Shown piece by piece: positions 3,918 to 64,000 of a DNA stretch of 64,000 bases (within the stretch, counting starts at the first letter, position 1; each line of letters opens with the position of its first letter). Source of the stretch: Odiellus spinosus (taxonomy: Eukaryota; Arthropoda; Arachnida; Opiliones; Phalangiidae); assembly GCA_963920705.1 (NCBI GenBank), contig OY987240.1, positions 930,001 through 994,000 on the forward strand, given 5' to 3'. The notes below the pieces were generated by a model. It worked only from the letters and a program-made list of their open reading frames with translations, did not search any database and was not told the DNA's origin. The position numbers were made by a program, and so were the translations under genes.

Positions 3918-3990
3918 AGAACAATTACAGTTGTAGGGTGTTTTTTCTTTTAGGTCTTCCGATACGCGTATCTAGCTAGCGCGAGGTCGG

Positions 3991-5609: not shown

Positions 5610-5973
5610 CATAAGTAAAAGTTTCGATAGGCCGAATTTATACGTCATTTTTTTGTAAATTTTTTATTCATATTAATTATTATAATTATAGCTTTATGAT
5701 TTCTTAGACTGTGACTTTCATATTTCTTTCACTGTGAATTTATAATTTCTGTCCCTTCACGGGTTTGAAATTCTAACCTTTAAATGCACATTTTTGAAGT
5801 ACGAAGCAAAACAACGTTTTTGTATAATAATTATAGCTTTATGATTTCTTAGACTGTGACTTTCATATTTCTTTCACTGTGAATTTATAATTTCTGTCCC
5901 TTCACGGGTTTGAAATTCTTACCTATAAATGCACTTTTTTGAAGTGCGAAGCAAAACAACGTTTTTGTATAAT
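5610..5973 (-). repeat. Foldback right arm
   Basis: Reverse complement of the left arm, with the outer unit at 5829-5973 and the inner unit at 5684-5828. The final GTATAAT runs straight into the satellite at ATTTTGATATT. If flanking bases are counted, the inverted symmetry extends to 5044-5975. Confidence 0.9.
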
Positions 5974-5974
5974 T
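5972..5974. repeat. Candidate 3-bp target-site duplication, right copy (ATT)
   Basis: Partner of ATT at 408-410. The satellite phase continues here exactly as expected for an uninterrupted monomer. The same bases overlap the foldback terminus, so ownership is ambiguous. Confidence 0.5.
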
Positions 5975-6445
5975 TTGATATTGTATGATTTCTTGAATTG
6001 GCCATATTTTTCTTGTTTTTCAACGGATTTTTGAAAACTCTTATTATTTAGACTGTCCATTAATTGCTCTTTCGAATGACTTTGGTTTTGTATAAATTGC
6101 CAAAACGTGACAAATATAAAATGGGTTGAAATGAAGCCAAAACGCTTAAAAATCAAACATTATTGGATTCAAATGGACACAAAACATTTGATTTTTAAGC
6201 GATTTAGACAAAATCAACACGTATCGAAAGAGCAAATATTGGTCTATCTAAAAAACAAGAGTTTTGGAAAATCCGTTGAAAAACATGGAAAATATAGCCA
6301 ATTCAAAAAACATCTAATATCAAAAAGCGAATTTTTAAAATCTGAAATTTGACTATTTTGATATTGTATGATTTCTTGAATTGGCCATATTTTTCTCTTT
6401 TTTCAACGGATTTTTGAAAACTCTTATTATTTAGACAGTCCATTA
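5972..6445. repeat. Satellite: first copies after the insert
   Basis: Slightly over one monomer. The copy at 6107 is alpha-type with private variants (ATGAAGCCAAAACG instead of ATGAAGCTAAAACG; TTTTGTATAAATTGCC just before it). The next has TTTTTCTCTTTTTTC near 6390. Edge-like divergence contrasts with the homogenised blocks further in. Confidence 0.8.
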
Positions 6446-6483
6446 ATTGCTCTTTCGAATGACTTTGGTTTTGTCTAAATTGC
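6199..6483. repeat. Representative intra-monomer inverted repeat (about 130-bp arms)
   Basis: The left arm runs from GCGATTTAGACAAAATC through CGAAAGAGC, AACAAGAGTTTTGG, AATCCGTTGAAAAAC, AATATAGCCAATTC to CTAATATCAAAA. The right arm is its imperfect reverse complement, from TTTTGATATTGTATG through GAATTGGCCATATTTTTC, GTTTTTCAACGGATT, GAGCTCTTTCGA-like blocks to GTCTAAATTGC. The spacer is about 27 bases around AATTTTTAAAATCTG. Compared as predicted peptides, the two arms share 25 of 36 residues in the best stretch (FRQNQ, SKEQ, NKSF, KSVEK). Almost every monomer in the array has the same layout. Confidence 0.85.
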
Positions 6484-9400
6484 CAAAACGTGACAAATAT
6501 AAAATGGGTTGAAATGAAGCTAAAACGCTTAAAAATCAAACATTATTGGATTCAAATGGACACAAAACATTTGATTTTTAAGCGATTTAGACAAAATCAA
6601 CACGTATCGAAAGAGCAAATATTGGTCTATCTAAAAAACAAGAGTTTTGGAAAATCCGTTGAAAAACATTGAAAATATAGCCAATTCAAAAAACATCTAA
6701 TATCAAAAAGCGAATTTTTAAAATCTGAAATTTGACTATTTTGATATTGTATGGTTTCATGAATTGGCCATTATTTCTTGTTTTTCAACGGATTTTTGAA
6801 AACTCTTATTATTTAGACTGTCCATTAATTGCTCTTTCGAATGACTTTGGTTTTGTCTAAATTGCCAAAACGTGACAAATATAAAATTGGTTAAAATTAA
6901 GAAAAAACGCTTAAAAATCCAAGATTATTGGATTCAAATGAACACAAAACTTTTGATTTTTAAGCGATTTAGACAAAATTAAGACCACTCGAAAGAGCAA
7001 ATATTGGTCTATCTAAAAAACAAGAGTTTTGGAAAATCCGTTGAAAAACATGGAAAATATGGGCAATTCAAAAAACATCTAATATCAAAAAGCGAATTTT
7101 TAAAATCTGAAATTTGACTATTTTGATATTCTATGATTTCTTGAATTGGCCATATTTTTCTTGTTTTTCAACGGATTTTTGAAAACTCTTATTATTTAGA
7201 CTGTCCATTAATTGCTCTTTCGAATGACTTTGGTTTTGTCTAAATTGCAAAATTATGACAAATATAAAATTGTTTAAAATTAAGCAAAAACGCTTAAAAA
7301 TCCAAGATTATTGGATTAAAATGGACACAAAACTTTTGATTTTTAAGCGATTTAGACAAAATTAAGACCACTCGAAAGAGCAAATATTGGTCTATCTGAA
7401 AATCAAGAGTTTTGGAAAATCCGTTGAAAAACATGGAAAATATGGACAATTCAAAAAACATCTAATATCAAAAAGCGAATTTTTAAAATCTGAAATTTGA
7501 CTATTTTGATATTGTATGATTTCTTGAATTGGCCATATTTTTCTTGTTTTTCAACGGATTTTTGAAAACTCTTATTATTTAGACTGTCCATTAATTGCTC
7601 TTTCGAATGGCTTTGATTTTGTCTAAATTGCCAAAACGTGACAAATATAAAATTGGTTAAAATTAAGAAAAAACGCTTAAAAATCCAAGATTATTGGATT
7701 CAAATGAACACAAAACTTTTGATTTTTAAGCGATTTAGACAAAATTAAGACCACTCGAAAGAGCAAATATTGGTCTATCTAAAAAACAAGAGTTTTGGAA
7801 AATCCCTTGAAAAACATGGAAAATATGGACAAAACAAAAAACATCTAATATCAAAAAGCGAATTTTTAAAATCTGAAATTTGACTATTTTGATATTGTAT
7901 GATTTATTGAATTGGCCATATTTTTCTTGTTTTTCAACGGATTTTTGAAAACTCTTATTATTTAGACTGTTCATTAATTTCTCTTTCGAATGACTTTGGT
8001 TTTGTCTAAATTGCCAAAACGTGACAAATATAAAATTGGTTAAAATTAAGCAAAAACGCTTAAAAATCCAAGATTATTGGATTCAAATGGACACAAAACT
8101 TTTGATTTTTAAGCGATTTATACAAAATTAAGACTACTCGAAAGAGCAAATATTGGTCTATCTAAAAAACAAGAGTTTTGGAAAATCCGTTGAAAAACCT
8201 GGAAAATATGGCCATTTCAAAAAAAAACCTAATATCAAAAAGCGAATTTTTAAAATCTGAAATTTGACTATTTTGATATTGTATGATTTCTTGAATTGGC
8301 CATATTTTTCTTGTTTTTCAACGGATTTTTGAAAACTCTTATTATTTAGACTGTCCATTAATTGCTCTTTCGAATGACTTTGGTTTTGTCTAAATTGCCA
8401 AAACGTGACAAATATAAAATGGGTTTAAAATGAAGCAAAAACGCTTAAAAATCCAAGATTATTGGATTCAAATGGACACAAAACTTTTGATTTTAAAGCG
8501 ATTTAGACAAAATTATGACTACTCGAAAGACCAAATTTTGGTCTATCTAAAAAACAAGAGATTTGGAAAATCCGTTGAAAAACATGGAAAATATGGCCAA
8601 TTCAAGAAACCATGCAATATCAAAATAGTCAAATTTCAGATTTTCAAAATTCGCTTTTTGATATTAGATGTTTTTTGAATTGTCCATATTTTCCATGTTT
8701 TTCAACGGATTTTCCAAAACTCTTGTTTTTTAGATAGACCAATATTTGCTCTTTCGAGTGGTCTTAATTTTGTCTAAATCGCTTAAAAATCAAAAGTTTT
8801 GTGTCCATTTGAATCCAATAATCTTGGATGTTTAAGCGTTTTTGCTTAATTTTAACCAATTTTATATTGGTCACAATTTTGCAATTTAGACAAAACCAAA
8901 ATCATTCGAAAGAGCAATTAATGGACAGTCTAAATAATAAGAGTTTTCAAAAATCCGTTGAAAAACAAGAAAAATATGGCCAATTCAAAAAACATCTAAT
9001 ATCAAAAAGCGAATTTTTAAAATCTGAAATTTGACTATTTTGATATTGTATGGTTTCTTGAATTGGCCATATTTTTCTTGTTTTTCAACGGATTTTTGAA
9101 AACTCTTATTATTTAGACTGTCCATTAATTGCTCTTTCGAATGACTTTGGTTTTGTCTAAATTGCAAAATTGTGACAATTATAAAATTGGTTAAAATTAA
9201 GCAAAAACACTTAAAAATCCAAGATTATTGGATTCAAATGGACACAAAACTTTTGATTTTTAAGCGATTTAGACAAACTTAAGATCACTCGAAAGAGCAA
9301 ATATTGGTCTATCTGAAAATCAAGAGTTTTGGAAAATCCGTTGAAAAACATGGAAAATATGGACAATTCAAAAAGCATCTAATATCAAAAACCGAATTTT

Positions 9401-12400
9401 TAAAATCTGAAATTTGACTATTTTGATATTGTATGATTTCTTGAATTGGCCATATTTTTCTTGTTTTTCAACGGATTTTTGAAAACTCTTGTTATTTAGA
9501 CTGTCCATTAATTGCTCTTTCGAATGACTTTGGTTTTGTCTAAATTGCAAAATTGTGACAAATATAAAATTGGTTAAAATAAAGCAAAAACACTTAAAAA
9601 TCCAAGATTATTGGATTCAAATGGACACTAAACTTTTGATTTTTAAGCGATTTAGACAAAATTAAGACCACTCGAAAGAGCAAATATTGGTCTATCTAAA
9701 AAACAAGAGTTTTGGAAAATCCGTTGAAAAACATTGAAAATATGGACAATTCAAAAAGCATCTAATATCAAAAAGCGAATTTTTAAAATCTGAAATTTGA
9801 CTATTTTGATATTGTATGATTTCTTGAATTGGCCATATTTTTCTTGTTTTTCAACGGATTTTTGAAAACTCTTATTATTTAGACTGTCCATTAATTGCTC
9901 TTTCGAATGACTTTGGTTTTGTCTAAATTGCCAAAACGTGACAAATATAAAATGGGTTGAAATGAAGCTAAAACGCTTAAAAATCAAACATTATTGGATT
10001 CAAATAGACACAAAACATTTGATTTTTAAGCGATTTAGACAAAATCAACACGTATCGAAAGAGCAAATATTGGTCTATCTAAAAAACAAGAGTTTTGGAA
10101 AATCCGTTGAAAAACATGGAAAATATAGCCAATTCAAAAAACATCTAATATCAAAAAGCGAATTTTTAAAATCTGAAATTTGACTATTTTGATATTGTAT
10201 GGTTTCTTGAATTGGCCATATTTTTCTTGTTTTTCAACGGATTTTTGAAAACTCTTATTATTTAGACTGTCCATTAATTGCTCTTTCGAATGACTTTGGT
10301 TTTGTCTAAATTGCAAAATTGTGACAAATATAAAATTGGTTAAAATTAAGCAAAAACGCTTAAAAATCCAAGATTATTGGATTCAAATGGACACAAAACT
10401 TTTGATTTTTAAGCGATTTAGACAAAATTAAGACCACTCGAAAGAGCAAATATTGGTCAATCAAAAAACAAGAGTTTTGGAAAATCCGTTGAAAAACCTG
10501 GAAAATATGGCCAATTCAAAAAACATCTAATATCAAAAAGCGAATTTTTAAAATCTGAAATTTGACTATTTTGATATTGTATGATTTCTTGAATTGGCCA
10601 TATTTTTCTTGTTTTTCAACGGATTTTTTAAAACTCTTATTATTTAGACTGTCCATTAATTGCTCTTTCGAATGACTTTGGTTTTGTCTAAATTGCCAAA
10701 ACGTGACAAATATAAAATTGGTTAAAATTAAGAAAAAACGCTTAAAAATCCAAGATTATTGGATTCAAATGAACACAAAACTTTTGATTTTTAAGCGATT
10801 TAGACAAAATTAAGACCACTCGAAAGAGCAAAAATTGGTCTATCTAAAAACAAGAGTTTTGGAAAATCCGTTGAAAAACATGGAAAATATGGACAATTCA
10901 AAAAACATCTAATATCAAAAAGCGAATTTTTAAAATCTGAAATTTGACTATTTTGATATTGTATAATTTCTTGAATTGGCCATATTTTTCTTGTTTTTCA
11001 ACGGATTTTTGAAAACTCTTATTATTTAGACTGTCCATTAATTGCTCTTTCGAATGACTTTGGTTTTGTCTAAATTGCCAAAACGTGACAAATATAAAAT
11101 TGGTTAAAATTAAGCAAAAACTCTTAAAAATCCAAGATTATTGGATTCAAATGGACACAAAACTTTTGATTTTAAAGCGATTTAGACAAAATTAAGACCA
11201 CTCGAAAGACCAAATTTTGGTCTATCTAAAAAACAAGAGTTTTGGAAAATCCGTTGAAAAACCTGGAAAATATGGCCAATTCAAAAAACATCTAATATCA
11301 AAAAGCGAATTTTTAAAATCTGAAATTTGACTATTTTGATATTGTATGATTTCTTGAATTAGCCATATTTTTCTTGTTTTTCAACGGATTTTTGAAAACT
11401 CTTATTATTTAGACTGTCCATTAATTGCTCTTTCGAATGACTTTGGTTTTGTCTAAATTGCCAAAACGTGACAAATATAAAATGGGTTGAAATGAAGCTA
11501 AAACGCTTAAAAATCAAACATTATTGGATTCAAATGGACACAAAACATTTGATTTTTAAGCGATTTAGACAAAATCAACACGTATCGAAAGAGCAAATAT
11601 TGGTCTATCTAAAAAACAAGAGTTTTGGAAAATCCGTTGAAAAACATTGAAAATATGGACAATTCAAAAAGCATCTAATATCAAAAAGCGAATTTTTAAA
11701 ATCTGAAATTTGACTATTTTGATATTGTATGATTTCTTGAATTGGCCATATTTTTCTTGTTTTTCAACGGATTTTTGAAAACTCTTATTATTTAGACTGT
11801 CCATTAATTGCTCTTTCGAATGACTTTGGTTTTGTCTAAATTGCCAAAACGTGACAAATATAAAATGGGTTGAAATGAAGCTAAAACGCTTAAAAATCAA
11901 ACATTATTGGATTCAAATAGACACAAAACATTTGATTTTTAAGCGATTTAGACAAAATCAACACGTATCGAAAGAGCAAATATTGGTCTATCTAAAAAAC
12001 AAGAGTTTTGGAAAATCCGTTGAAAAACATGGAAAATATAGCCAATTCAAAAAACATCTAATATCAAAAAGCGAATTTTTAAAATCTGAAATTTGACTAT
12101 TTTGATATTGTATGGTTTCTTGAATTGGCCATATTTTTCTTGTTTTTCAACGGATTTTTGAAAACTCTTATTATTTAGACTGTCCATTAATTGCTCTTTC
12201 GAATGACTTTGGTTTTGTCTAAATTGCAAAATTGTGACAAATATAAAATTGGTTAAAATTAAGCAAAAACGCTTAAAAATCCAAGATTATTGGATTCAAA
12301 TGGACACAAAACTTTTGATTTTTAAGCGATTTAGACAAAATTAAGACCACTCGAAAGAGCAAATATTGGTCAATCAAAAAACAAGAGTTTTGGAAAATCC

Positions 12401-13336
12401 GTTGAAAAACCTGGAAAATATGGCCAATTCAAAAAACATCTAATATCAAAAAGCGAATTTTTAAAATCTGAAATTTGACTATTTTGATATTGTATGATTT
12501 CTTGAATTGGCCATATTTTTCTTGTTTTTCAACGGATTTTTTAAAACTCTTATTATTTAGACTGTCCATTAATTGCTCTTTCGAATGACTTTGGTTTTGT
12601 CTAAATTGCCAAAACGTGACAAATATAAAATTGGTTAAAATTAAGAAAAAACGCTTAAAAATCCAAGATTATTGGATTCAAATGAACACAAAACTTTTGA
12701 TTTTTAAGCGATTTAGACAAAATTAAGACCACTCGAAAGAGCAAAAATTGGTCTATCTAAAAACAAGAGTTTTGGAAAATCCGTTGAAAAACATGGAAAA
12801 TATGGACAATTCAAAAAACATCTAATATCAAAAAGCGAATTTTTAAAATCTGAAATTTGACTATTTTGATATTGTATAATTTCTTGAATTGGCCATATTT
12901 TTCTTGTTTTTCAACGGATTTTTGAAAACTCTTATTATTTAGACTGTCCATTAATTGCTCTTTCGAATGACTTTGGTTTTGTCTAAATTGCCAAAACGTG
13001 ACAAATATAAAATTGGTTAAAATTAAGCAAAAACTCTTAAAAATCCAAGATTATTGGATTCAAATGGACACAAAACTTTTGATTTTAAAGCGATTTAGAC
13101 AAAATTAAGACCACTCGAAAGACCAAATTTTGGTCTATCTAAAAAACAAGAGTTTTGGAAAATCCGTTGAAAAACCTGGAAAATATGGCCAATTCAAAAA
13201 ACATCTAATATCAAAAAGCGAATTTTTAAAATCTGAAATTTGACTATTTTGATATTGTATGATTTCTTGAATTAGCCATATTTTTCTTGTTTTTCAACGG
13301 ATTTTTGAAAACTCTTATTATTTAGACTGTCCATTA
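6446..13336. repeat. Higher-order repeat, 18-mer of 6,891 bp, copy 1
   Basis: Diagnostic variants here reappear exactly 6,891 bp downstream: CATTGAAAATATAGCC (6667 and 13558), CATGAATTGGCCATTATTT (6757 and 13648) and the flipped monomer (8604 and 15495). Within it a 1,913-bp pentamer occurs twice (about 9.73-11.64 kb and 11.64-13.55 kb), shown by CATTGAAAATATGGAC with AAAAAGCATC at 9732 and 11645. So one round of pentamer duplication preceded or accompanied the larger one. Confidence 0.85.
8604..8987 (-). repeat. Single flipped satellite monomer (copy 1)
   Basis: About 384 bp, one monomer, is present in reverse orientation between normally oriented neighbours: AATATCAAAATAGTCAAATT, AGATAGACCAATATTTGC, CCAATAATCTTGG and AATTAATGGACAGTC all read as reverse complements of the array. 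Both switch points fall inside ATATGGCCAATTCAA, a stretch that each monomer carries in both orientations because of its dyad. Phase is kept on both sides. Recombination or template switching between the inverted half-units is the likely cause. Confidence 0.9.
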
Positions 13337-16300
13337 ATTGCTCTTTCGAATGACTTTGGTTTTGTCTAAATTGCCAAAACGTGACAAATATAAAATGGGT
13401 TGAAATGAAGCTAAAACGCTTAAAAATCAAACATTATTGGATTCAAATGGACACAAAACATTTGATTTTTAAGCGATTTAGACAAAATCAACACGTATCG
13501 AAAGAGCAAATATTGGTCTATCTAAAAAACAAGAGTTTTGGAAAATCCGTTGAAAAACATTGAAAATATAGCCAATTCAAAAAACATCTAATATCAAAAA
13601 GCGAATTTTTAAAATCTGAAATTTGACTATTTTGATATTGTATGGTTTCATGAATTGGCCATTATTTCTTGTTTTTCAACGGATTTTTGAAAACTCTTAT
13701 TATTTAGACTGTCCATTAATTGCTCTTTCGAATGACTTTGGTTTTGTCTAAATTGCCAAAACGTGACAAATATAAAATTGGTTAAAATTAAGAAAAAACG
13801 CTTAAAAATCCAAGATTATTGGATTCAAATGAACACAAAACTTTTGATTTTTAAGCGATTTAGACAAAATTAAGACCACTCGAAAGAGCAAATATTGGTC
13901 TATCTAAAAAACAAGAGTTTTGGAAAATCCGTTGAAAAACATGGAAAATATGGGCAATTCAAAAAACATCTAATATCAAAAAGCGAATTTTTAAAATCTG
14001 AAATTTGACTATTTTGATATTCTATGATTTCTTGAATTGGCCATATTTTTCTTGTTTTTCAACGGATTTTTGAAAACTCTTATTATTTAGACTGTCCATT
14101 AATTGCTCTTTCGAATGACTTTGGTTTTGTCTAAATTGCAAAATTATGACAAATATAAAATTGTTTAAAATTAAGCAAAAACGCTTAAAAATCCAAGATT
14201 ATTGGATTAAAATGGACACAAAACTTTTGATTTTTAAGCGATTTAGACAAAATTAAGACCACTCGAAAGAGCAAATATTGGTCTATCTGAAAATCAAGAG
14301 TTTTGGAAAATCCGTTGAAAAACATGGAAAATATGGACAATTCAAAAAACATCTAATATCAAAAAGCGAATTTTTAAAATCTGAAATTTGACTATTTTGA
14401 TATTGTATGATTTCTTGAATTGGCCATATTTTTCTTGTTTTTCAACGGATTTTTGAAAACTCTTATTATTTAGACTGTCCATTAATTGCTCTTTCGAATG
14501 GCTTTGATTTTGTCTAAATTGCCAAAACGTGACAAATATAAAATTGGTTAAAATTAAGAAAAAACGCTTAAAAATCCAAGATTATTGGATTCAAATGAAC
14601 ACAAAACTTTTGATTTTTAAGCGATTTAGACAAAATTAAGACCACTCGAAAGAGCAAATATTGGTCTATCTAAAAAACAAGAGTTTTGGAAAATCCCTTG
14701 AAAAACATGGAAAATATGGACAAAACAAAAAACATCTAATATCAAAAAGCGAATTTTTAAAATCTGAAATTTGACTATTTTGATATTGTATGATTTATTG
14801 AATTGGCCATATTTTTCTTGTTTTTCAACGGATTTTTGAAAACTCTTATTATTTAGACTGTTCATTAATTTCTCTTTCGAATGACTTTGGTTTTGTCTAA
14901 ATTGCCAAAACGTGACAAATATAAAATTGGTTAAAATTAAGCAAAAACGCTTAAAAATCCAAGATTATTGGATTCAAATGGACACAAAACTTTTGATTTT
15001 TAAGCGATTTATACAAAATTAAGACTACTCGAAAGAGCAAATATTGGTCTATCTAAAAAACAAGAGTTTTGGAAAATCCGTTGAAAAACCTGGAAAATAT
15101 GGCCATTTCAAAAAAAAACCTAATATCAAAAAGCGAATTTTTAAAATCTGAAATTTGACTATTTTGATATTGTATGATTTCTTGAATTGGCCATATTTTT
15201 CTTGTTTTTCAACGGATTTTTGAAAACTCTTATTATTTAGACTGTCCATTAATTGCTCTTTCGAATGACTTTGGTTTTGTCTAAATTGCCAAAACGTGAC
15301 AAATATAAAATGGGTTTAAAATGAAGCAAAAACGCTTAAAAATCCAAGATTATTGGATTCAAATGGACACAAAACTTTTGATTTTAAAGCGATTTAGACA
15401 AAATTATGACTACTCGAAAGACCAAATTTTGGTCTATCTAAAAAACAAGAGATTTGGAAAATCCGTTGAAAAACATGGAAAATATGGCCAATTCAAGAAA
15501 CCATGCAATATCAAAATAGTCAAATTTCAGATTTTCAAAATTCGCTTTTTGATATTAGATGTTTTTTGAATTGTCCATATTTTCCATGTTTTTCAACGGA
15601 TTTTCCAAAACTCTTGTTTTTTAGATAGACCAATATTTGCTCTTTCGAGTGGTCTTAATTTTGTCTAAATCGCTTAAAAATCAAAAGTTTTGTGTCCATT
15701 TGAATCCAATAATCTTGGATGTTTAAGCGTTTTTGCTTAATTTTAACCAATTTTATATTGGTCACAATTTTGCAATTTAGACAAAACCAAAATCATTCGA
15801 AAGAGCAATTAATGGACGGTCTAAATAATAAGAGTTTTCAAAAATCCGTTGAAAAACAAGAAAAATATGGCCAATTCAAAAAACATCTAATATCAAAAAG
15901 CGAATTTTTAAAATCTGAAATTTGACTATTTTGATATTGTATGGTTTCTTGAATTGGCCATATTTTTCTTGTTTTTCAACGGATTTTTGAAAACTCTTAT
16001 TATTTAGACTGTCCATTAATTGCTCTTTCGAATGACTTTGGTTTTGTCTAAATTGCAAAATTGTGACAATTATAAAATTGGTTAAAATTAAGCAAAAACA
16101 CTTAAAAATCCAAGATTATTGGATTCAAATGGACACAAAACTTTTGATTTTTAAGCGATTTAGACAAACTTAAGATCACTCGAAAGAGCAAATATTGGTC
16201 TATCTGAAAATCAAGAGTTTTGGAAAATCCGTTGAAAAACATGGAAAATATGGACAATTCAAAAAGCATCTAATATCAAAAACCGAATTTTTAAAATCTG

Positions 16301-52200: not shown

Positions 52201-54900
52201 GTTTTGGAAAATCCGTTGAAAAACCTGGAAAATACGGCCAATTCAAAAAACATCTAATATCAAAAAGCGAATTTTTAAAATCTGAAATTTGACTATTTTG
52301 ATATTGTATGATTTCTTGAATTGGCCATATTTTTCTTGTTTTTCAACGGATTTTTGAAAACTCTTATTATTTAGACTGTCCATTAATTGCTCTTTCGAAT
52401 GACTTTGGTTTTGTCTAAATTGCCAAAACGTGACAAATATAAAATTGGTTAAAATTAAGCCAAAACGCTTAAAAATCCAAGATTATTGGATTCAAATGGA
52501 CACAAAACTTTTGATTTTAAAGCGATTTAGACAAAATTAAGACCACTCGAAAGACCAAATTTTGGTCTAACTAAAAAACAAGAGTTTTGGAAAATCCGTT
52601 GAAAAACATGGAAAATATGGCCAATTCAAAAAACATCTAATATCAAAAAGCGAATTTTTAAAATCTGAAATTTGACTATTTTGATATAGTATGATTTCTT
52701 GAATTGGTCATATTTTTCTTGTTTTTCAACGGATTTTTGAAAACTCTTATTATTTAGACTGCCCATTAATTGCTCTTTCGAATGACTTTGGTTTTGTCTA
52801 AATTGCCAAAACGTGACAAATATAAAATTGGTTAAACGTAAGCAAAAACGCTTAAAAATCCAAGATTATTGGATTCAAATGGACACAAAACTTTTGATTT
52901 TAAAGCGATTTAGACAAAATTAAGACCACTCGAAAGACCAAATTTTGGTCTATCTAAAAAACAAGAGTTTTGGAAAATTCGTTGAAAAACATGGAAAATA
53001 TAGCCAATTCAAAAAACATCTAATATCAAAAAGCGAATTTTTAAAATCTGAAATTTGTCTATTTTGATACTGTATGGTTTCTTGAATTGGCCAAATTTTC
53101 TTGTTTTTCAACGGATTTTTGAAAACTCTTATTATTTAGACTGTCCATTAATTGCTCTTTCGAATGGCTTTGGTTTTGTCTAAATTGCCAAAACGTGACA
53201 AATATAAAATTGGTTAAAATTAAGCAAAAACGCTTAAAAATCCAAGATTATTGGATTCAAATGGACACAAAACTTTTGATTTTAAAGCGATTTAGACAAA
53301 ATTAAGACCACTCGAAAGACCAAATTTTGGTCTATCTAAAAAACAAGAGTTTTGGAAAATCCGTTGAAAAACCTGGAAAATATGGCCAATTCAAAAAACA
53401 TCTAATATCAAAAAGCGAATTTTTAAAATCTGAAATTTGACTATTTTGATATTGTATGATTTCTTGAATTGGCCATATTTTTCTTGTTTTTCAACGGATT
53501 TTTGAAAACTCTTATTATTTAGACTGCCCATTAATTGCTCTTTCGAATGACTTTGGTTTTGTCTAAATTGCCAAAACGTGACAAATATAAAATTGGTTAA
53601 ACGTAAGCAAAAACGCTTAAAAATCCAAGATTATTGGATTCAAATGGACACAAAACTTTTGATTTTAAAGCGATTTAGACAAAATTAAGACCACTCGAAA
53701 GACCAAATTTTGGTCTATCTAAAAAACAAGAGTTTTGGAAAATTCGTTGAAAAACATGGAAAATATAGCCAATTCAAAAAACATCTAATATCAAAAAGCA
53801 AATTTTTAAAATCTGAAATTTGTCTATTTTGATACTGTATGGTTTCTTGAATTGGCCAAATTTTCTTGTTTTTCAACGGATTTTTGAAAACTCTTATTAT
53901 TTAGACTGTCCATTAATTGCTCTTTCGAATGGCTTTGGTTTTGTCTAAATTGCCAAAACGTGACAAATATAAAATTGGTTAAAATTAAGCAAAAACGCTT
54001 AAAAATCCAAGATTATTGGATTCAAATGGACACAAAACTTGATTTTAAAGCGATTTAGACAAAATTAAGACCACTCGAAAGACCAAATTTTGGTCTATCT
54101 AAAAAACAAGAGTTTTGGAAAATCCGTTGAAAAACCTGGAAAATATGGCCAATTCAAAAAACATCTAATATCAAAAAGCGAATTTTTAAAATCTGAAATT
54201 TGACTATTTTGATATTGTATGATTTCTTGAATTGGCCATATTTTTCTTGTTTTTCAACGGATTTTTGAAAACTCTTATTATTTAGACTGTCCATTAATTG
54301 CTCTTTCGAATGACTTTGGTTTTGTCTAAATTGCCAAAACGTGACAAATATAAAATTGGTTAAAATTAAGCAAAAACGCTTAAAAATCCAAGATTATTGG
54401 ATTCAAATGGACACAAAACTTTTGATTTTAAAGCGATTTAGACAAAATTAAGACCACTCGAAAGACCAAATTTTGGTCTATCTAAAAAGAAAGAGTTTTG
54501 GAAAATCCGTTGAAAAACCTGGAAAATATGGCCAATTCAAAAAACATCTAATATCAAAAAGCGAATTTTTAAAATCTGAAATTTGACTATTTTGATATTG
54601 TATGATTTCTTGAATTGGCCATATTTTTCTTGTTTTTCAACGGATTTTTGAAAACTCTTATTATTTAGACTGTCCATTAATTGCTCTTTCGAATGACTTT
54701 GGTTTTGTCTAAATTGCCAAAACGTGACAAATATAAAATTGGTTAAAATTAAGCCAAAACGCTTAAAAATCCAAGATTATTGGATTCAAATGGACACAAA
54801 ACTTTTGATTTTAAAGCGATTTAGACAAAATTAAGACCACTCGAAAGACCAAATTTTGGTCTATCTAAAAAACAAGAGTTTTGGAAAATCCGTTGAAAAA
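46201..54900. repeat. Gamma-only satellite block with a 2,297-bp hexamer
   Basis: No alpha monomer occurs here. TGATACTGTATGG with GGCCAAATTTTC recurs at 46563, 48860 and 51157 (2,297 each), then at 51922, 53070 and 53835 (765, 1,148, 765). Other markers with 2,297 spacing are ACGGCCGATTC (48024, 50321), ACGGCTGATTC (49172, 51469), GAATGAATTTGG and GAGTTTAGGAAAATCC. The sub-variant GGTTAAACGTAAGC with GACTGCCCATTAAT appears for the first time. About two full hexamers are followed by shorter rearranged pieces. Confidence 0.8.
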
Positions 54901-56430
54901 CATGGAAAATATGGCCAATTCAAAAAACATCTAATATCAAAAAGCGAATTTTTAAAATCTGAAATTTGACTATTTTGATATAGTATGATTTCTTGAATTG
55001 GTCATATTTTTCTTGTTTTTCAACGGATTTTTGAAAACTCTTATTATTTAGACTGCCCATTAATTGCTCTTTCGAATGACTTTGGTTTTGTCTAAATTGC
55101 CAAAACGTGACAAATATAAAATGGGTTGAAATGAAGCTAAAACGCTTAAAAATCAAACATTATTGGACTCAAATGGACACAAAACATTTGATTTTTAAGC
55201 GATTTAGACAAAATCAACACGTATCGAAAGAGCAAATATTGGTCTATCTAAAAAACAAGAGTTTTGGAAAATCCGTTGAAAAACATGGAAAATATGGCCA
55301 ATTCAAAAAACATCTAATATCAAAAAGCGAATTTTTAAAATCTGAAATTTGACTATTTTGATATAGTATGATTTCTTGAATTGGTCATATTTTTCTTGTT
55401 TTTCAACGGATTTTTGAAAACTCTTATTATTTAGACTGTCCATTAATTGCTCTTTCGAATGACTTTGGTTTTGTCTAAATTGCCAAAACGTGACAAATAT
55501 AAAATTGGTTAAAATTAAGCAAAAACGCTTAAAAATCCAAGATTATTGGATTCAAATGGACACAAAACTTTTGATTTTAAAGCGATTTAGACAAAATTAA
55601 GACCACTCGAAAGACCAAATTTTGGTCTATCTAAAAAACAAGAGTTTTGGAAAATCCGTTGAAAAACATGGAAAATATAGCCAATTCAAAAAACATCTCA
55701 TATCAAATAGCGAATTTTTAAAATCTGAAATTTGACTATTTTGATATTGTATGGTTTCTTGATTTAGCCATATTTCTCTTGTTTTTCAACGGATTTTTGA
55801 AAACTCTTATTATTTAGACTGTCCATTAATTGCTCTTTCGAATGGCTTTTTTTTGTCTAAATTGCCAAAACGTGACAAATATAAAATTGGTTAAAATTAA
55901 GAAAAAACGCTTAAAAATCCAAGATTATTGGATTCAAATGAACACAAAACATTTGATTTTTAAGCGATTTAGACAAAATCAACACGTATCGAAAGAGCAA
56001 ATATTGGTCTATCTAAAAAACAAGAGTTTTGGAAAATCCGTTGAAAAACATGGAAAATATGCCAATTCAAAAAACATCTAATATCAAAAAGCGAATTTTT
56101 AAAATCTGAAATTTGACTATTTTGATATTGTATGGTTTCTTGAATTGGCCATATTTTTCTTGTTTTTCAACGGATTTTTTTGAAATCTCTTATTATTTAG
56201 ACTGTCCATTAATTGCTCTTTCGAATGACTTTGGTTTTGTCTAAATTGCCAAAACGTGACAAATATAAAATTGGTTAAAATTATGAAAAAACGCTTAAAA
56301 ATCCAAGATTATTGGATTCAAATGGACACAAAACTTTTGATTTTTAAGCGATTTAGACAAAATTAAGACCACTCGAAAGAGCAAATATTGGTCTATCTAA
56401 AAAACAAGAGTTTTGGAAAATCCGTTGAAA
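54901..56430. repeat. Satellite block: return of alpha copies
   Basis: An alpha copy with GACTGCCCATTAAT upstream (55107) combines a gamma-domain left part with an alpha right part and looks recombinant. At about 55.9 kb another hybrid joins a beta start (AAGAAAAAACG, ATGAACACAAAAC) to alpha AATCAACACGTATCG. The hybrids mark exchange between subfamilies. Confidence 0.65.
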
Positions 56431-59400
56431 AACCTGGAAAATATGGCCATTTCAAAAAACATCTAATATCAAAAAGCGAATTTTTAAAATCTGAAATTTG
56501 ACTATTTTGATATTGTATGATTTCTTGAATTGGACATATTTTTCTTGGTTTTCAACGGATTTTTGAAAACTCTTATTATTTAGACTGTCCATTAATTGCT
56601 CTTTAGAATGACTTTGGTTTTGTCTAAATTGCCAAAACATGACAAATATAAAATGGGTTGAAATGAAGCTAAAACGCTTAAAAATCAAACATTATTGGAT
56701 TCAAATGGACACAAAACATTTGATTTTTAAGCGATTTAGACAAAATCAACACGTATGGAAAGAGCAAATATTGGTCTATCTAAAAAACAAGAGTTTTGGA
56801 AAATCCGTTGAAAAACATGGAAAATATAGCCAATTCAAAAAACATCTCATATCAAAAAGCGAATTTTTAAAATCTGAAATTTGACTATTTTAATATTGTA
56901 TGGTTTCTTGAATTGGCCATATTTCTCTTGTTTTTCAACGGATTTTTGAAAACTCTTATTATTTAGACTGTCCATTAATTGCTCTTTCGAATGGCTTTGG
57001 TTTTGTCTAAATTGACAAAACGTGACAAATATAAAATTGGTTAAAATTAAGAAAAAACGCTTAAAAATCCAAGATTATTGGATTCAAATGAACACAAAAC
57101 TTTTGATTTTTAAGCGATTTAGACAAAATTAAGACCACTCGAAAGAGCTAATATTGGTCTATCTAAAAAACAAGAGTTTTGGAAAATCCGTTGAAAAACA
57201 TGGAAAATATGGACAATTCAAAAAACATCTAATATCAAAAAGCGAATTTTTAAAATCTGAAATTTGACTATTTTGATATTGTATAATTTCTTGAATTGGC
57301 CATATTTTTCTTGTTTTTCAACGGATTTTTGAAAACTCTTATTATTTAGACTGTCCATTAATTGCTCTTTCGAATGACTTTGGTTTTGTCTAAATTGCCA
57401 AAACGTGACAAATATAAAATTGGTTAAAATTAAGCCAAAACGCTTAAAAATCTAAGATTATTGGATTCAAATGGACACAAAACTTTTGATTTTAAAGCGA
57501 TTTAGACAAAATTAAGACCACTCGAAAGACCAAATTTTGGTCTATCTAAAAAACAAGAGTTTTGGAAAATCCGTTGAAAAACATGGAAAATATGGCCAAT
57601 TCAAAAAACATCTAATATCAAAAAGCGAATTTTTAAAATCTGAAATTTGACTATTTTGATATAGTATGATTTCTTGAATTGGTCATATTTTTCTTGTTTT
57701 TCAACGGATTTTTGAAAACTCTTATTATTTAGACTGCCCATTAATTGCTCTTTCGAATGACTTTGGTTTTGTCTAAATTGCCAAAACGTGACAAATATAA
57801 AATTGGTTAAACGTAAGCAAAAACGCTTAAAAATCCAAGATTATTGGATTCAAATGGACACAAAACTTTTGATTTTAAAGCGATTTAGACAAAATTAAGA
57901 CCACTCGAAAGACCAAATTTTGGTCTATCTAAAAAACAAGAGTTTAGGAAAATCCGTTGAAAAACATGAAAATATGGCCAATTCAAAAAACATCTAATAT
58001 CAAAAAGCGAATTTTTAAAATCTGAAATTTGACTATTTTGATATAGTATGATTTCTTGAATTGGTCATATTTTTCTTGTTTTTCAACGGATTTTTGAAAA
58101 CTCTTATTATTTAGACTGTCCATTAATTGCTCTTTCGAATGACTTTGGTTTTGTCTAAATTGCCAAAACGTGACAAATATAAAATTGGTTAAAATTAAGC
58201 AAAAACGCTTAAAAATCCAAGATTATTGGATTCAAATGGACACAAAACTTTTGATTTTTAAGCGATTTAGACAAAATTAAGACCACTCGAAAGAGCAAAT
58301 ATTGGTCTATCTAAAAAACAAGAGTTTTGGAAAATCCGTTGAAAAACCTGGAAAATACGGCCGATTCAAAAAACATCTAATATCAAAAAGCGAATTTTTA
58401 AAATCTGAAATTTGACTATTTTGATATTGTATGATTTCTTGAATTGGCCATATTTTTCTTGTTTTTCAACGGATTTTTGAAAACTCTTATTATTTAGACT
58501 GTCCATTAATTGCTCTTTCGAATGACTTTGGTTTTGTCTAAATTGCCAAAACGTGACAAATATAAAATTGGTTAAAATTAAGCCAAAACGCTTAAAAATC
58601 CAAGATTATTGGATTCAAATGGACACAAAACTTTTGATTTTAAAGCGATTTAGACAAAAGTAAGACCACTCGAAAGACCAAATTTTGGTCTATCTAAAAA
58701 ACAAGAGTTTTGGAAAATCCGTTGAAAAACATGGAAAATATGGCCAATTCAAAAAACATCTAATATCAAAAAGCGAATTTTTAAAATCTGAAATTTGACT
58801 ATTTTGATATAGTATGATTTCTTGAATTGGTCATATTTTTCTTGTTTTTCAACGGATTTTTGAAAACTCTTATTATTTAGACTGCCCATTAATTGCTCTT
58901 TCGAATGACTTTGGTTTTGTCTAAATTGCCAAAACGTGACAAATATAATATTGGTTAAACGTAAGCAAAAACGCTTAAAAATCCAAGATTATTGGATTCA
59001 AATGGACACAAAACTTTTGATTTTAAAGCGATTTAGACAAAATTAAGACCACTCGAAAGACCAAATTTTGGTCTATCTAAAAAACAAGAGTTTTGGAAAA
59101 TCCGTTGAAAAACCTGGAAAATATGGCCATTTCAAAAAACATCTAATATCAAAAAGCGAATTTTTAAAATCTGAAATTTGACTATTTTGATATTGTATGA
59201 TTTCTTGAATTGGACATATTTTTCTTGGTTTTCAACGGATTTTTGAAAACTCTTATTATTTAGACTGTCCATTAATTGCTCTTTAGAATGACTTTGGTTT
59301 TGTCTAAATTGCCAAAACATGACAAATATAAAATGGGTTGAAATGAAGCTAAAACGCTTAAAAATCAAACATTATTGGATTCAAATGGACACAAAACATT

Positions 59401-60400
59401 TGATTTTTAAGCGATTTAGACAAAATCAACACGTATGGAAAGAGCAAATATTGGTCTATCTAAAAAACAAGAGTTTTGGAAAATCCGTTGAAAAACATGG
59501 AAAATATAGCCAATTCAAAAAACATCTCATATCAAAAAGCGAATTTTTAAAATCTGAAATTTGACTATTTTAATATTGTATGGTTTCTTGAATTGGCCAT
59601 ATTTCTCTTGTTTTTCAACGGATTTTTGAAAACTCTTATTATTTAGACTGTCCATTAATTGCTCTTTCGAATGGCTTTGGTTTTGTCTAAATTGACAAAA
59701 CGTGACAAATATAAAATTGGTTAAAATTAAGAAAAAACGCTTAAAAATCCAAGATTATTGGATTCAAATGAACACAAAACTTTTGATTTTTAAGCGATTT
59801 AGACAAAATTAAGACCACTCGAAAGAGCTAATATTGGTCTATCTAAAAAACAAGAGTTTTGGAAAATCCGTTGAAAAACATGGAAAATATGGACAATTCA
59901 AAAAACATCTAATATCAAAAAGCGAATTTTTAAAATCTGAAATTTGACTATTTTGATATTGTATAATTTCTTGAATTGGCCATATTTTTCTTGTTTTTCA
60001 ACGGATTTTTGAAAACTCTTATTATTTAGACTGTCCATTAATTGCTCTTTCGAATGACTTTGGTTTTGTCTAAATTGCCAAAACGTGACAAATATAAAAT
60101 TGGTTAAAATTAAGCCAAAACGCTTAAAAATCTAAGATTATTGGATTCAAATGGACACAAAACTTTTGATTTTAAAGCGATTTAGACAAAATTAAGACCA
60201 CTCGAAAGACCAAATTTTGGTCTATCTAAAAAACAAGAGTTTTGGAAAATCCGTTGAAAAACATGGAAAATATGGCCAATTCAAAAAACATCTAATATCA
60301 AAAAGCGAATTTTTAAAATCTGAAATTTGACTATTTTGATATAGTATGATTTCTTGAATTGGTCATATTTTTCTTGTTTTTCAACGGATTTTTGAAAACT
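56431..60400. repeat. Higher-order repeat, heptamer of 2,680 bp, about 1.5 copies
   Basis: Markers repeat at 2,680 bp: TTTCTTGGTTTTCAACGG (56542 and 59222), CTCTTTAGAATGAC, CCAAAACATGACAAAT (56630 and 59310), AAGAGCTAATATTGG (57143 and 59823) and AAAATCTAAGATT (57446 and 60126). The stretch at 57.8-58.9 kb also shares GAGTTTAGGAAAATCC, ACGGCCGATTC and AAAAGTAAGACC with the hexamers at 47-50 kb, so this block borrowed from that one. Confidence 0.8.
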
Positions 60401-63400
60401 CTTATTATTTAGACTGTCCATTAATTGCTCTTTCGAATGGCTTTGGTTTTGTCTAAATTGCCAAAACGTGACAAATATAAAATTGGTTAAAATTAAGCAA
60501 AAACCCTTAAAAATCCAAGATTATTGGATTCAAATGGACACAAAACTTTTGATTTTAAAGCGATTTAGACAAAATTAAGAACACTCGAAAGACCAAATTT
60601 TGGTCTATCTAAAAAACAAGAGTTTTGGAAAATCCGTTGAAAAACCTGGAAAATATGGCCAATTCAAAAAACATCTAATATCAAAAAGCGAATTTTTAAA
60701 ATCTGAAATTTGACTATTTTGATATTGTATGATTTCTTGAATTGGCCATATTTTTCTTGTTTTTCAACGGATTTTTGAAAACTCTTATTATTTAGACTGT
60801 CCATTAATTGCTCTTTCGAATGACTTTGGTTTTGTCTAAATTGCCAAAACGTGACAAATATAAAATTGGTTAAAATTAAGCAAAAACGCTTAAAAATCCA
60901 AGATTATTGGATTCAAATGGACACAAAACTTTTGATTTTAAAGCGATTTAGACAAAATTAAGACCACTCGAAAGACCAAATTTTGGTCTATCTAAAAAAC
61001 AAGAGTTTTGGAAAATCCGTTAAAAAACCTGGAAAATATGGCCAATTCAAAAAACATCTAATATCAAAAAGCGAATTTTTAAAATCTGAAATTTGACTAT
61101 TTTGATATTGTATGATTTCTTGAATTGGCCATATTTTTCTTGTTTTTCAACGGATTTTTGAAAACTCTTATTATTTAGACTGCCCATTAATTGCTCTTTC
61201 GAATGACTTTGGTTTTGTCTAAATTGCCAAAACGTGACAAATATAAAATTGGTTAAACGTAAGCAAAAACGCTTAAAAATCCAAGATTATTGGATTCAAA
61301 TGGACACAAAACTTTTGATTTTAAAGCGATATAGACAAAATTAAGACCACTCGAAAGACCAAATTTTGGTCTATCTAAAAAACAAGAGTTTTGGAAAATT
61401 CGTTGAAAAACATGGAAAATATAGCCAATTCAAAAAACATCTAATATCAAAAAGCGAATTTTTAAAATCTGAAATTTGTCTATTTTGATACTGTATGGTT
61501 TCTTGAATTGGCCAAATTTTCTTGTTTTTCAACGGATTTTTGAAAACTCTTATTATTTAGACTGTCCATTAATTGCTCTTTCGAATGGCTTTGGTTTTGT
61601 CTAAATTGCCAAAACGTGACAAATATAAAATTGGTTAAAATTAAGCAAAAACGCTTAAAAATCCAAGATTATTGGATTCAAATGGACACAAAACTTTTGA
61701 TTTTAAAGCGATTTAGACAAAATTAAGACCACTCGAAAGACCAAATTTTGGTCTATCTAAAAAACAAGAGTTTTGGAAAATCCGTTGAAAAACCTGGAAA
61801 ATATGGCCAATTCAAAAAACATCTAATATCAAAAAGCGAATTTTTAAAATCTGAAATTTGACTATTTTGATATTGTATGATTTCTTGAATTGGCCATATT
61901 TTTCTTGTTTTTCAACGGATTTTTGAAAACTCTTATTATTTAGACTGTCCATTAATTGCTCTTTCGAATGACTTTGGTTTTGTCTAAATTGCCAAAACGT
62001 GACAAATATAAAATTGGTTAAAATTAAGCAAAAACGCTTAAAAATCCAAGATTATTGGATTCAAATGGACACAAAACTTTTGATTTTAAAGCGATTTAGA
62101 CAAAATTAAGACCACTCGAAAGACCAAATTTTGGTCTATCTAAAAAACAAGAGTTTTGGAAAATCCGTTAAAAAACCTGGAAAATATGGCCAATTCAAAA
62201 AACATCTAATATCAAAAAGCGAATTTTTAAAATCTGAAATTTGACTATTTTGATATTGTATGATTTCTTGAATTGGCCATATTTTTCTTGTTTTTCAACG
62301 GATTTTTGAAAACTCTTATTATTTAGACTGTCCATTAATTGCTCTTTCGAATGACTTTGGTTTTGTCTAAATTGCCAAAACGTGACAAATATAAAATTGG
62401 TTAAAATTAAGCAAAAACGCTTAAAAATCCAAGATTATTGGATTCAAATGGACACAAAACTTTTGATTTTAAAGCGATTTAGACAAAATTAAGACCACTC
62501 GAAAGACCAAATTTTGGTCTATCTAAAAAACAAGAGTTTTGGAAAATCCGTTGAAAAACCTGGAAAATATGGCCATTTCAAAAAACATCTAATATCAAAA
62601 AGCGAATTTTTAAAATCTGAAATTTGACTATTTTGATATTGTATGATTTCTTGAATTGGCCATATTTTTCTTGTTTTTCAACGGATTTTTGAAAACTCTT
62701 ATTATTTAGACTGCCCATTAATTGCTCTTTCGTATGACTTTGGTTTTGTCTAAATTGCCAAAACGTGACAAATATAAAATTGGTTAAACGTAAGCAAAAA
62801 CGCTTAAAAATCCAAGATTATTGGATTCAAATGGACACAAAACTTTTGATTTTAAAGCGATTTAGACAAAATTAAGACCACTCGAAAGACCAAATTTTGG
62901 TCTATCTAAAAAACAAGAGTTTTGGAAAATCCGTTAAAAAACCTGGAAAATATGGCCAATTCAAAAAACATCTAATATCAAAAAGCGAATTTTTAAAATC
63001 TGAAATTTGACTATTTTGATATTGTATGATTTCTTGAATTGGCCATATTTTTCTTGTTTTTCAACGGATTTTTGAAAACTTATTATTTAGACTGCCCATT
63101 AATTGCTCTTTCGAATGACTTTGGTTTTGTCTAAATTGCCAAAACGTGACAAATATAAAATTGGTTAAACGTAAGCAAAAACGCTTAAAAATCCAAGATT
63201 ATTGGATTCAAATGGACACAAAACTTTTGATTTTAAAGCGATTTAGACAAAATTAAGACCACTCGAAAGACCAAATTTTGGTCTATCTAAAAAACAAGAG
63301 TTTTGGAAAATTCGTTGAAAAACATGGAAAATATAGCCAATTCAAAAAACATCTAATATCAAAAAGCGAATTTTTAAAATCTGAAATTTGTCTATTTTGA

Positions 63401-64000
63401 TACTGTATGGTTTCTTGAATTGGCCAAATTTTCTTGTTTTTCAACGGATTTTTGAAAACTCTTATTATTTAGACTGTCCATTAATTGCTCTTTCGAATGG
63501 CTTTGGTTTTGTCTAAATTGCCAAAACGTGACAAATATAAAATTGGTTAAAATTAAGCAAAAACGCTTAAAAATCCAAGATTATTGGATTCAAATGGACA
63601 CAAAACTTTTGATTTTAAAGCGATTTAGACAAAATTAAGACCACTCGAAAGACCAAATTTTGGTCTATCTAAAAAACAAGAGTTTTGGAAAATCCGTTGA
63701 AAAACCTGGAAAATATGGCCAATTCAAAAAACATCTAATATCAAAAAGCGAATTTTTAAAATCTGAAATTTGACTATTTTGATATTGTATGATTTCTTGA
63801 ATTGGCCATATTTTTCTTGTTTTTCAACGGATTTTTGAAAACTCTTATTATTTAGACTGTCCATTAATTGCTCTTTCGAATGACTTTGGTTTTGTCTAAA
63901 TTGCCAAAACGTGACAAATATAAAATTGGTTAAAATTAAGCAAAAACGCTTAAAAATCCAAGATTATTGGATTCAAATGGACACAAAACTTTTGATTTTA
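60401..64000. repeat. Gamma-rich satellite block to the window end
   Basis: Gamma monomers with frequent GACTGCCCATTAAT and GGTTAAACGTAAGC. CCGTTAAAAAACCTGG occurs near 61016, 62165 and 62933. The TGATACTGTATGG monomer is at 61491 and 63403, about 1,912 bp apart, consistent with a pentamer. A CT deletion (GAAAACTTATT) lies near 63078. The array is cut by the window edge. Confidence 0.75.

Follow-up and report, generated by a model that had tools for sequence, protein, structure and literature searches.

The palindromic form of many insect (peri)centromeric satellites, and the giant inverted domains of some arrays, raise the question of their cause, for which a structural role in the centromere is one proposal. 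The same question is raised by a stretch of 64,000 nucleotides from the opilionid Odiellus spinosus (contig OY987240.1, positions 930,001 to 994,000; hereafter the window), most of which is occupied by a palindromic satellite with a 383-bp unit.

Extent and orientation of the satellite

TRF reported a repeat of period 383 with 151.6 copies and 94% matches at positions 5972-63999, and 151 full 383-bp monomers could be cut from the window, with a mean pairwise identity of 0.951. The first-pass annotation of this DNA began the array at 5972, which proved too late: a monomer already lies at 26-407, separated from the rest by an insert.

1..407, plus strand: end of one monomer (1-25) and a full monomer (26-407; blastn match to the consensus at 97.9% in 383 columns)
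408..5971, unstranded: non-satellite insert within the array
~5044-5975: foldback-like element forming the right part of the insert; its 370-bp inverted ends consist of two 145-bp repeats and are 99.5% identical
5972..64000, plus strand: satellite array of 151 full monomers (5972-63775) and a partial one

The annotation had also counted about 150 units in a row; the number holds, but a core scan showed that two units of the window are inverted relative to the rest of the array. Counted by their spacer, the copies in the genome total ~76,000 units, corresponding to ~29 Mb or 6.6%, and the repeat is tandem, abundant and non-coding, as palindromic satellite DNA is. Contig samples from 20 kb to 1.055 Mb consisted of satellite, except for ~6 kb in one sample. 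The samples of contig C18 carried it on the minus strand from 20 to 430 kb and on the plus strand from 435 to 1,055 kb. Such sub-arrays of opposite orientation (macro-dyads) were found in these samples and at two further loci, L060 and L066, and 22 strand changes occur among the 64 matches with two mismatches listed on contig C6. A candidate diverged subfamily (L009, 72%) turned out to be the same satellite read on the opposite strand. No exact match to the spacer was found in bacterial and viral sequence collections. The genome also holds 10,296 matches to TTAGG repeats, overlapping ones counted.

The palindrome within the unit

Aligned with its own reverse complement, the doubled consensus scores 314, whereas 500 dinucleotide shuffles given the same treatment averaged 27 (sd 9) and none came near the real score (maximum 71). 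This half-to-half alignment upholds the earlier view of the monomer as an imperfect palindrome whose arms are alike beyond chance. Of 136 aligned arm pairs in a consensus built from 583 array monomers, 115 are complementary (84.6%), and in individual monomers the proportion ranges from 0.76 to 0.86 (mean 0.82). A single monomer is also predicted to fold far more stably than 100 shuffles, none of which did as well, both as single-stranded DNA (-83.6 kcal/mol vs -34.8 +/- 4.3) and as RNA (-136.8 kcal/mol vs -60.1 +/- 5.1, z -15), in line with the hairpins that the annotation had expected. The parts of the unit, in the full monomer that immediately follows the insert, are listed below.

5972..6097, plus strand: left arm, form A (consensus 1-126; arm alignment)
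6098..6142, plus strand: 45-bp segment found in one arm only (consensus 127-171)
6143..6154, plus strand: 12-mer CGCTTAAAAATC, inner end of the left arm
6190..6201, plus strand: 12-mer GATTTTTAAGCG, inner end of the right arm
6199..6326, plus strand: right arm, form B (consensus 228-355)
6327..6354, plus strand: non-palindromic spacer, core S (consensus 356-383)

The arms do flank a short spacer, of 28 bp. The perfect 12-bp inverted pair noted before is present too, both 12-mers being exact in 353 of the 583 monomers, but it is not a separate structure: the same stem resumes past the 45-bp segment. The halves are therefore ~169 bp and 169+45 bp. An ancestor of ~190 bp had been proposed; that size does not fit these halves, while the inverted duplication itself is supported by a single colinear stem with a one-sided 45-bp interruption. 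The unit can thus be described as alternating asymmetric cores, S (the spacer) and L (the centre), linked by ~127-bp arms with 85% identity in inverted orientation. The reported sharing of 25 of 36 predicted residues between the strands was roughly correct, a count by eye in the frames giving 27 of 42. Because the arm differences are spread evenly over codon positions (8/7/6), which gives a coding basis no support, we read this shared peptide as a by-product of the palindrome.

Proposed selection for pairing and centromeric role

In line with the first-pass annotation, the palindrome could be maintained for cruciforms or hairpins that function in centromeric chromatin; the strand switches described below would then be a side effect. 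The strong predicted fold agrees with this idea, and a 2026 paper on Tribolium madens, in the text available, suggests a related function for satellites of this kind (PMC13081366). The C18 array covers ~1 Mb close to an end of the contig, and C6 opens with satellite. Variability is lower at matched than at mismatched arm positions (0.018 vs 0.034, permutation p 0.02), which lends weak support to constraint, and the least variable parts of the unit are the spacer (mean minor-allele frequency 0.0074 at 355-383, 583 monomers) and some arm segments. Against it, pairing-restoring variants at mismatched arm pairs number 13 of 38 where 14.5 are expected, so that these 38 variants show no excess of compensatory changes. 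The best CENP-B-box-like match covers 7 of 9 positions, a value that 93 of 300 shuffles reach or exceed, and we rejected the repeat as a CENP-B-box satellite. On contigs C1-C4, all exact arm matches among those listed sit in transposons and none in a satellite array, which implies that some large contigs lack an assembled array. We therefore consider a centromeric explanation of the palindrome unlikely. Arm-to-arm conversion was not seen either: none of 1,219 arms between same-strand cores carries a tract of at least three sites from the other arm. As far as sequence can speak to it, the evidence does not favour selection for base pairing.

Strand switches within the arms

The two inverted units of the window are bounded by the following features.

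8486..8626, unstranded: chimeric arm, plus-to-minus switch (diagnostic string A.BABBBB..., form A at columns 11 and 20)
8627..8881, minus strand: cores of the inverted unit (S, L and the 45-bp segment, all on the minus strand; core scan)
8882..9007, unstranded: chimeric arm, minus-to-plus switch (diagnostic string BBBB, then AAAA...), with its breakpoint in the 18-bp tract TTGAATTGGCCATATTTT; exact junction-pattern match
15377..15517, unstranded: chimeric arm, copy of 8486-8626
15518..15772, minus strand: cores of a second inverted unit, which duplicates the first at a distance of 6,891 bp (18 units)
15773..15898, unstranded: chimeric arm, copy of 8882-9007 (diagnostic string and junction-pattern match)

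Both flips belong to one duplication that is 99.95% identical. The strand change lies inside the arm, which begins as one form and ends as the other, and core spacing is kept (170-174 or 209-213 bp in seven flips; usually 168-172 and 211-215). All eight arms at inter-unit flips, four of them in the window, combine sequence of the left arm with sequence of the right. These flips were read at three places only: the window; L066, picked because the listed matches showed opposite strands close together; and L060 (C6:1-600), which supplied the eighth arm and had been chosen for being the start of a contig, not on account of flips. By a test that demands a tract of at least three diagnostic sites of each arm form, six of the eight qualify as chimeric and none of 1,219 ordinary arms does. 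The remaining two are copies of one window junction, and their form A at columns 11 and 20 occurs in 0 of 606 ordinary B arms. The switch point lies between diagnostic columns 20-39 in six arms and 41-60 in two, and the breakpoints fall in the two longest tracts of A/B identity, 18 bp each. Since the window flips represent one duplicated event and different loci share junction forms, the number of distinct switch junctions that can be defended is only about three.

Genome-wide, at no more than one mismatch, we found 3,311 matches to the minus-to-plus chimera (C6:591,702 is an exact match to this junction pattern) and 245 to a plus-to-minus chimera; reversed control junction patterns had none. 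Within the fetched loci the minus-to-plus pattern matches flip arms only, and the orientation on both sides of this 3,311-copy junction was checked there for four distinct matches. The counts are imbalanced although both senses of change must alternate along a contig. The plus-to-minus pattern missed all four sampled plus-to-minus junctions, so either it undercounts or some minus-to-plus copies lie in unflipped units. Strand changes other than arm crossovers occur once in each of four transposon loci, where 41 bp separate the cores, and once on C18, at an inserted Penelope-like stretch; the 17 ten-kb C18 samples with satellite contain no arm flip.

The flips and chimeric arms might instead be assembly artefacts, in which repeat collapse joined plus and minus arrays at the longest shared tract. 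Breakpoints that coincide with the longest identity tracts are what a mis-join would leave, and exact junction copies do recur. However, these tracts measure only 18 bp, and long-read overlaps are far longer. Moreover, the window flip is one unit long inside a contiguous array and is present in both copies of the near-identical duplication, and the 100 listed of the 245 plus-to-minus matches are spread over 52 clusters on 11 contigs, all of which makes artefacts very unlikely.

A model for strand switching

We favour, with a probability of roughly 0.7, a joint explanation in which an inverted-duplication satellite switches strand through the homology of its arms and was captured by a foldback transposon. 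A sequence of ~169 bp would have been duplicated in inverted orientation to give the 383-bp unit, one arm then gaining a 45-bp insertion or the other losing 45 bp. The arms may supply the homology by which copies of opposite orientation undergo template switching or crossover. One such event could flip a core or a block, and amplification of the array would then multiply the junctions, so that a tandem array whose units all point one way would become a mosaic of inverted sub-arrays. Because the cores within the window flip are even in number, a single intramolecular inversion cannot give it, and a template switch or two events are needed. Judging from the junctions, the palindrome appears to permit neighbouring units to switch strand without a seam. 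Its broader form, that micro-dyads make macro-dyads because own-arm homology allows switching at any unit and amplification spreads the junctions, we hold to be an even bet.

Satellite within a foldback-type transposon

Fourteen dispersed foldback-type transposons contain the satellite, and the carrier element holds a rearranged piece of it in these 14 copies. A head-to-head satellite junction occurs once in each of them and, in the full listing, nowhere else. The carrier ends are 1,751-bp inverted repeats (99.3% identical) with 149-bp repeats present 5.3 times, that is, the long terminal inverted repeats with internal tandem repeats of foldback/Mutator-type elements. Nine-bp target duplications were sought by eye in five elements: three are perfect (C1, C5 and the C7 relative), the C16 element has one mismatch and the C4 element has none. 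Their size lies within the 8-10 bp given for Tetris of Drosophila virilis in the available part of PMC4079207. The 10.7-kb relative on C7 has ends 96-97% identical and open frames, and lacks the satellite. Its 597-aa open frame had no Pfam match, and a genome search with PF10551 placed none of its 72 listed matches at C7:12.54-12.55 Mb, so that a MULE transposase domain is not available as proof of superfamily.

A single capture event probably put the satellite into the element, which may be a route for seeding it elsewhere. The reverse, that the satellite arose from the foldback transposon, has a precedent in Tetris, which gave rise to the TIR-220 arrays of D. virilis (PMC4079207, as far as the text available goes). 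The element does contain tandem satellite units, and these expand inside it, since the inner lengths of copies differ by 383 and 890 bp. Nevertheless, the 14 elements have that one internal junction in common, the satellite is cut mid-unit at the element junctions, and the near relative with open frames does without it. The family also looks young, compared pairs being 99.8% and 99.97% identical and two further copies 98.9-99.5% in their longest matching pieces, whereas the ~76,000 satellite copies are diverged. Of 12 differences between elements and arrays, 3 are array-ancestral, 1 is element-ancestral and 8 are not polarisable. We regard a transposon origin as highly improbable. A MITE origin with solo copies gained no support from the exact C1-C4 arm matches among those listed, which lie only in transposons. 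We give equally little credence to the palindrome mattering as RNA, with transcripts of either strand forming long duplexes that feed heterochromatin small RNAs: the fold of one unit is strong, but the window has no match to a known RNA family in Rfam at the gathering threshold.

Comparison with known systems and significance

Palindromic satellites and array-scale inversions are already known in Tribolium, and the text available of PMC13081366 states that array symmetries of the macro-dyad type are documented only there. The TmSat2 monomer of the insect T. madens is also a long imperfect palindrome, and the TmSat1/TmSat2 macro-dyads resemble ours in changing orientation; the sequences at which they do so recur in thousands of near-identical copies (PMC13081366, same text), as may those of the present satellite. 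In TmSat1, however, the inversion sites are described there as containing diverged subunits of unexplained origin (PMC13081366), whereas here the junctions look like switches between left and right arm, down to single flipped units. Template switching at inverted repeats in yeast likewise involves imperfect arms and inverts the spacer by an arm switch; as far as the accessible text of PMC8604942 goes, those are short repeats in coding DNA whose arms are homogenised, unlike this satellite, where homogenisation was seen in 0 of 1,219 arms. Satellites of Palorus, Diadromus, Eupelmus, Trichogramma and Chironomus also contain inverted or palindromic repeats within units, of other sequence and size, and the portion available of PMC8122249 does not mention strand-switch junctions in them.

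Tetris, too, is of the foldback type: its inverted ends are long, it contains tandem repeats, and it is linked to satellite arrays. In the available part of PMC4079207 its array-forming repeat belongs to the element ends and no autonomous copy is reported, whereas the present element has its own 149-bp end repeat plus the satellite, and a relative with open frames. In the literature as far as accessible, searches by sequence, size and wording found no description of the 383-bp satellite, those on dyads, monomer orientation and strand switches found none of arm-chimera junctions in any satellite, and those on satellite capture by a transposon found only Tetris. Neither the strand switching nor the satellite-carrying transposon figured in the first-pass annotation, a reading of sequence only.

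Relative to the known Tribolium palindromes and inversions, the arm-chimera junctions and the satellite-loaded element look new. At single-base resolution the strand switches read as transitions from arm to arm, which offers a mechanistic and testable alternative to a centromere role, and the satellite-loaded transposon provides a tangible means by which a satellite could reach new chromosomes. If our reading is true, a palindromic satellite would be an orientation-neutral array, and macro-dyads of the Tribolium type would follow from the structure of the unit and not from selection for centromere architecture.

Palindromic structure of the satellite

Aligned with its own reverse complement, the consensus of the 383-bp Odiellus spinosus satellite scores 314, whereas 500 shuffles average 27 and never exceed 71, and the predicted folding energies of the monomer lie far below those of shuffles. 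Half-to-half alignment and predicted folding thus both uphold the first-pass annotation, which had described an imperfect palindrome beyond chance. From 650 extracted monomers we removed 46 from loci repeating others, then 16 from transposons, the two inverted units of the window, and three of low coverage; the remaining 583 array monomers come from contig C18, save those of two C139 loci. Their consensus has 136 arm pairs, 115 of them complementary. A 45-bp segment (consensus 127-171) is present in the left arm only; beyond it the stem resumes with a 12-bp pair (both 12-mers exact in 353/583 array monomers), leaving a loop of ~35 nt. The 12-bp pair, earlier regarded as separate, is therefore part of the same stem, and because the 45-bp segment is one-sided, the ancestor of each half comes to ~169 bp instead of the ~190 bp first proposed.

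Extent and abundance

The following features were annotated:

Window 26-407: full satellite monomer
Window 408-5971: insert, with palindromic left start AACAGGCCAGCTGGCCTGTT
Window 5972-63999: 383-bp tandem repeat, 151.6 copies
Window 8627-8881, minus strand: cores of inverted unit 1 (core scan)
Window 15518-15772, minus strand: cores of inverted unit 2 (core scan)

The satellite does not start at 5972, as previously placed, since a full monomer also precedes the insert. At the right of this insert (~5044-5975) lies a foldback-like element with two 145-bp repeats per inverted end.

The window covers C18:930,001-994,000. Samples of this contig taken at 20-430 kb contain minus-strand satellite, and those at 435-1,055 kb contain plus-strand satellite. 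One sampled locus (C18:840,001-850,000) contains a 763-bp two-unit higher-order repeat, then ~6 kb of non-satellite sequence. Tandem ~264-bp units, 5S rDNA-like by eye, were seen at C18 1,065-1,090 kb (including C18:1,080,001-1,090,000), starting at most 10 kb past the last satellite sample. C18 itself begins (C18:1-600) with the short tandem repeat ATTTGAAAAACACG, and C1 (C1:1-450) with TCAGG and TTAGG repeats mixed together, some in each orientation; the assembly (443 Mb, 286 contigs) has 10,296 matches to TTAGG-type repeats, overlaps included. Across the assembly, a spacer 30-mer with at most three mismatches has 36,969 forward and 39,144 reverse matches, and therefore the satellite amounts to ~76,000 units, ~29 Mb or 6.6% of the assembly. 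Ten TGA codons in COI on contig C286 fit TGA being read as Trp, which together with the TTAGG-type repeats makes an insect or other arthropod the probable source, and several COI-like pieces with TGA codons at C17 1.11-4.39 Mb are probable nuclear copies of mitochondrial DNA.

Strand flips between neighboring cores

Orientation was followed with two asymmetric cores joined by the arms, S (355-383) at the spacer and L (183-215) at the unit center, scanned in the window, 21 array loci and four transposon loci, and later in 18 more short loci of C18 and C6. The two inverted units of the window are copies within the same duplication (lag 6,891 bp, 99.95% identity over 6.5-10.5 kb) and thus represent one event. 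Three orientation changes between adjacent cores were found in L066 (C6:591,401-593,300), a locus picked since opposite-strand satellite matches stood close together there, and one in L060 (C6:1-600), fetched solely as a contig start. No arm flip was found in 17 satellite-bearing ten-kb C18 samples; on C6, 22 strand changes occur among the 64 matches listed (68 kb to 2.28 Mb).

The scanned loci hold five more strand changes that differ in kind from arm flips. Each of the four transposon loci has one, a head-to-head junction whose cores lie 41 bp apart; at the fifth, L059 (C18:430,451-435,000), a Penelope-like stretch separates minus and plus arrays. This stretch (152-2316 of the locus), recognized by eye, has reverse-transcriptase and GIY-YIG-like peptides and is preceded by a tRNA-like sequence.

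Chimeric arms at the flips

Each arm joining neighboring S and L cores was typed as A (left) or B (right) at 21 diagnostic columns. Of the 1,219 arms flanked by cores on the same strand (1,184 from arrays and 35 from transposons), none carries a tract of at least three sites typical of the opposite form, and six of the eight flip arms carry tracts of both forms (at least three sites each). The remaining two, copies of one window junction, read A.BABBBB..., with A at columns 11 and 20, a combination seen in 0/606 ordinary B arms. The switch falls at columns 20-39 in six flip arms and 41-60 in two, and these are the longest A/B identity tracts, 18 bp each (together 38/126 columns). Core spacing at seven flips is 170-174 or 209-213 bp vs the usual 168-172 and 211-215. 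Because the switches lie in identity tracts and core spacing is kept, the breakpoints are homologous and within the arms. The junctions come in three forms, one running - to + and two running + to -; the first of these and one of the other two recur in more than one locus, so that they represent about three distinct switches rather than eight.

Genome-wide, with at most one mismatch, the - to + chimera pattern occurs at 3,311 places, a + to - pattern at 245, and reversed control patterns at none. In the fetched loci the - to + pattern marks four distinct arms, each at a flip (L001 and L002 duplicate window sequence, and their matches are not extra). The + to - pattern matches none of the four + to - junctions sampled, making 245 an undercount. 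Along a contig, changes of one sense have to alternate with changes of the other, so the 13-fold imbalance means either that + to - junctions are mostly of other forms or that some - to + copies lie in unflipped units. The 100 listed of the 245 + to - matches group into 52 clusters, separated by over 20 kb and spread across 11 contigs; spacings are often close to a multiple of 383 bp, which points to local amplification of junctions.

We infer a strand-switch mechanism acting through arm homology. A crossover between an A-form and a B-form arm in inverted orientation would invert an odd number of cores. The block seen in L066 (S+ L+ S+) agrees with that, though its ends switch in different tracts. 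The window block (S- L-) has an even number, which would take two events, or else a template switch onto a copy on the minus strand followed by a return. In yeast, template switching between the arms of inverted repeats is known to occur with inversion of the spacer (PMC8604942).

A satellite-carrying transposon

On C1-C4, every exact satellite match listed outside arrays belongs to a dispersed element. Two complete copies of this transposon are:

C1:33,019,596-33,024,457: complete element, perfect 9-bp target duplication
C5:18,267,822-18,272,675: complete element, perfect 9-bp target duplication

These are 99.8% identical, with 1,751-bp ends at 99.3% and 149-bp subterminal repeats; two more copies (C3, C5) share 99.97% identity across 3,900 bp compared. 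By eye, target duplications in five elements are perfect in three, single-mismatch in one (C16) and absent in one (C4). Exact copies of the 36-base terminus stand at 27 places, which make up 13 pairs and one single; six further places match it with 1-2 mismatches. Inner lengths range over 1.7-6.2 kb, with steps of, for example, 383 and 890 bp. The element's own repeat meets the satellite mid-unit, a junction exact 27 times among the matches listed, and the head-to-head satellite junction has 14 copies genome-wide, one per element (13 exact, one with one mismatch).

A 10.7-kb foldback-type relative (C7:12,543,801-12,554,542) has ends 96-97% identical and no satellite. It possesses stop-to-stop open frames of 597, 398, and 223 aa and may be autonomous. 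Pfam gave nothing above cut-off and no transposase match for the three frames: none for the 597-aa frame, one weak match for the 223-aa frame, and for the 398-aa frame ubiquitin hydrolase (22.9 of 23.9 bits, below cut-off) plus one weaker match. The shared satellite junctions, together with the satellite-free relative, point to a single event in which a non-autonomous derivative captured satellite. The few polarized element/array differences comprise three array-ancestral and one element-ancestral, with eight without polarity.

Likely constraint on parts of the monomer

Across the 583 monomers, matched arm positions have a mean minor-allele frequency of 0.0178 and mismatched ones of 0.034 (permutation p 0.02); the value is 0.032 for loop plus insert and 0.0074 for the spacer. 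In a 29-bp window scan of variability, the spacer start ranks 32 of 383, and the least variable windows start near consensus 38-42 and 346-352. Pairing-restoring variants at mismatched arm pairs number 13/38 vs 14.5 expected, CENP-B box matches in the monomer are not above chance (7 of 9 reached by 93/300 shuffles), and arm differences show no codon bias by codon position. From these tests, constraint on some monomer segments is likely, while the variant tests give no demonstration of selection specifically for base pairing.

Relation to known satellites

Palindromic satellites are on record in several insects (PMC8122249). Tribolium madens has palindromic TmSat2 units, and also arrays whose halves are inverted and whose inversion sites are conserved; the authors state that array symmetries of this type are documented solely in Tribolium (PMC13081366). 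Tetris likewise ties a foldback element to a satellite but in the reverse direction from the capture proposed here (PMC4079207). Our literature search results included no satellite whose inversion junctions are arm chimeras.
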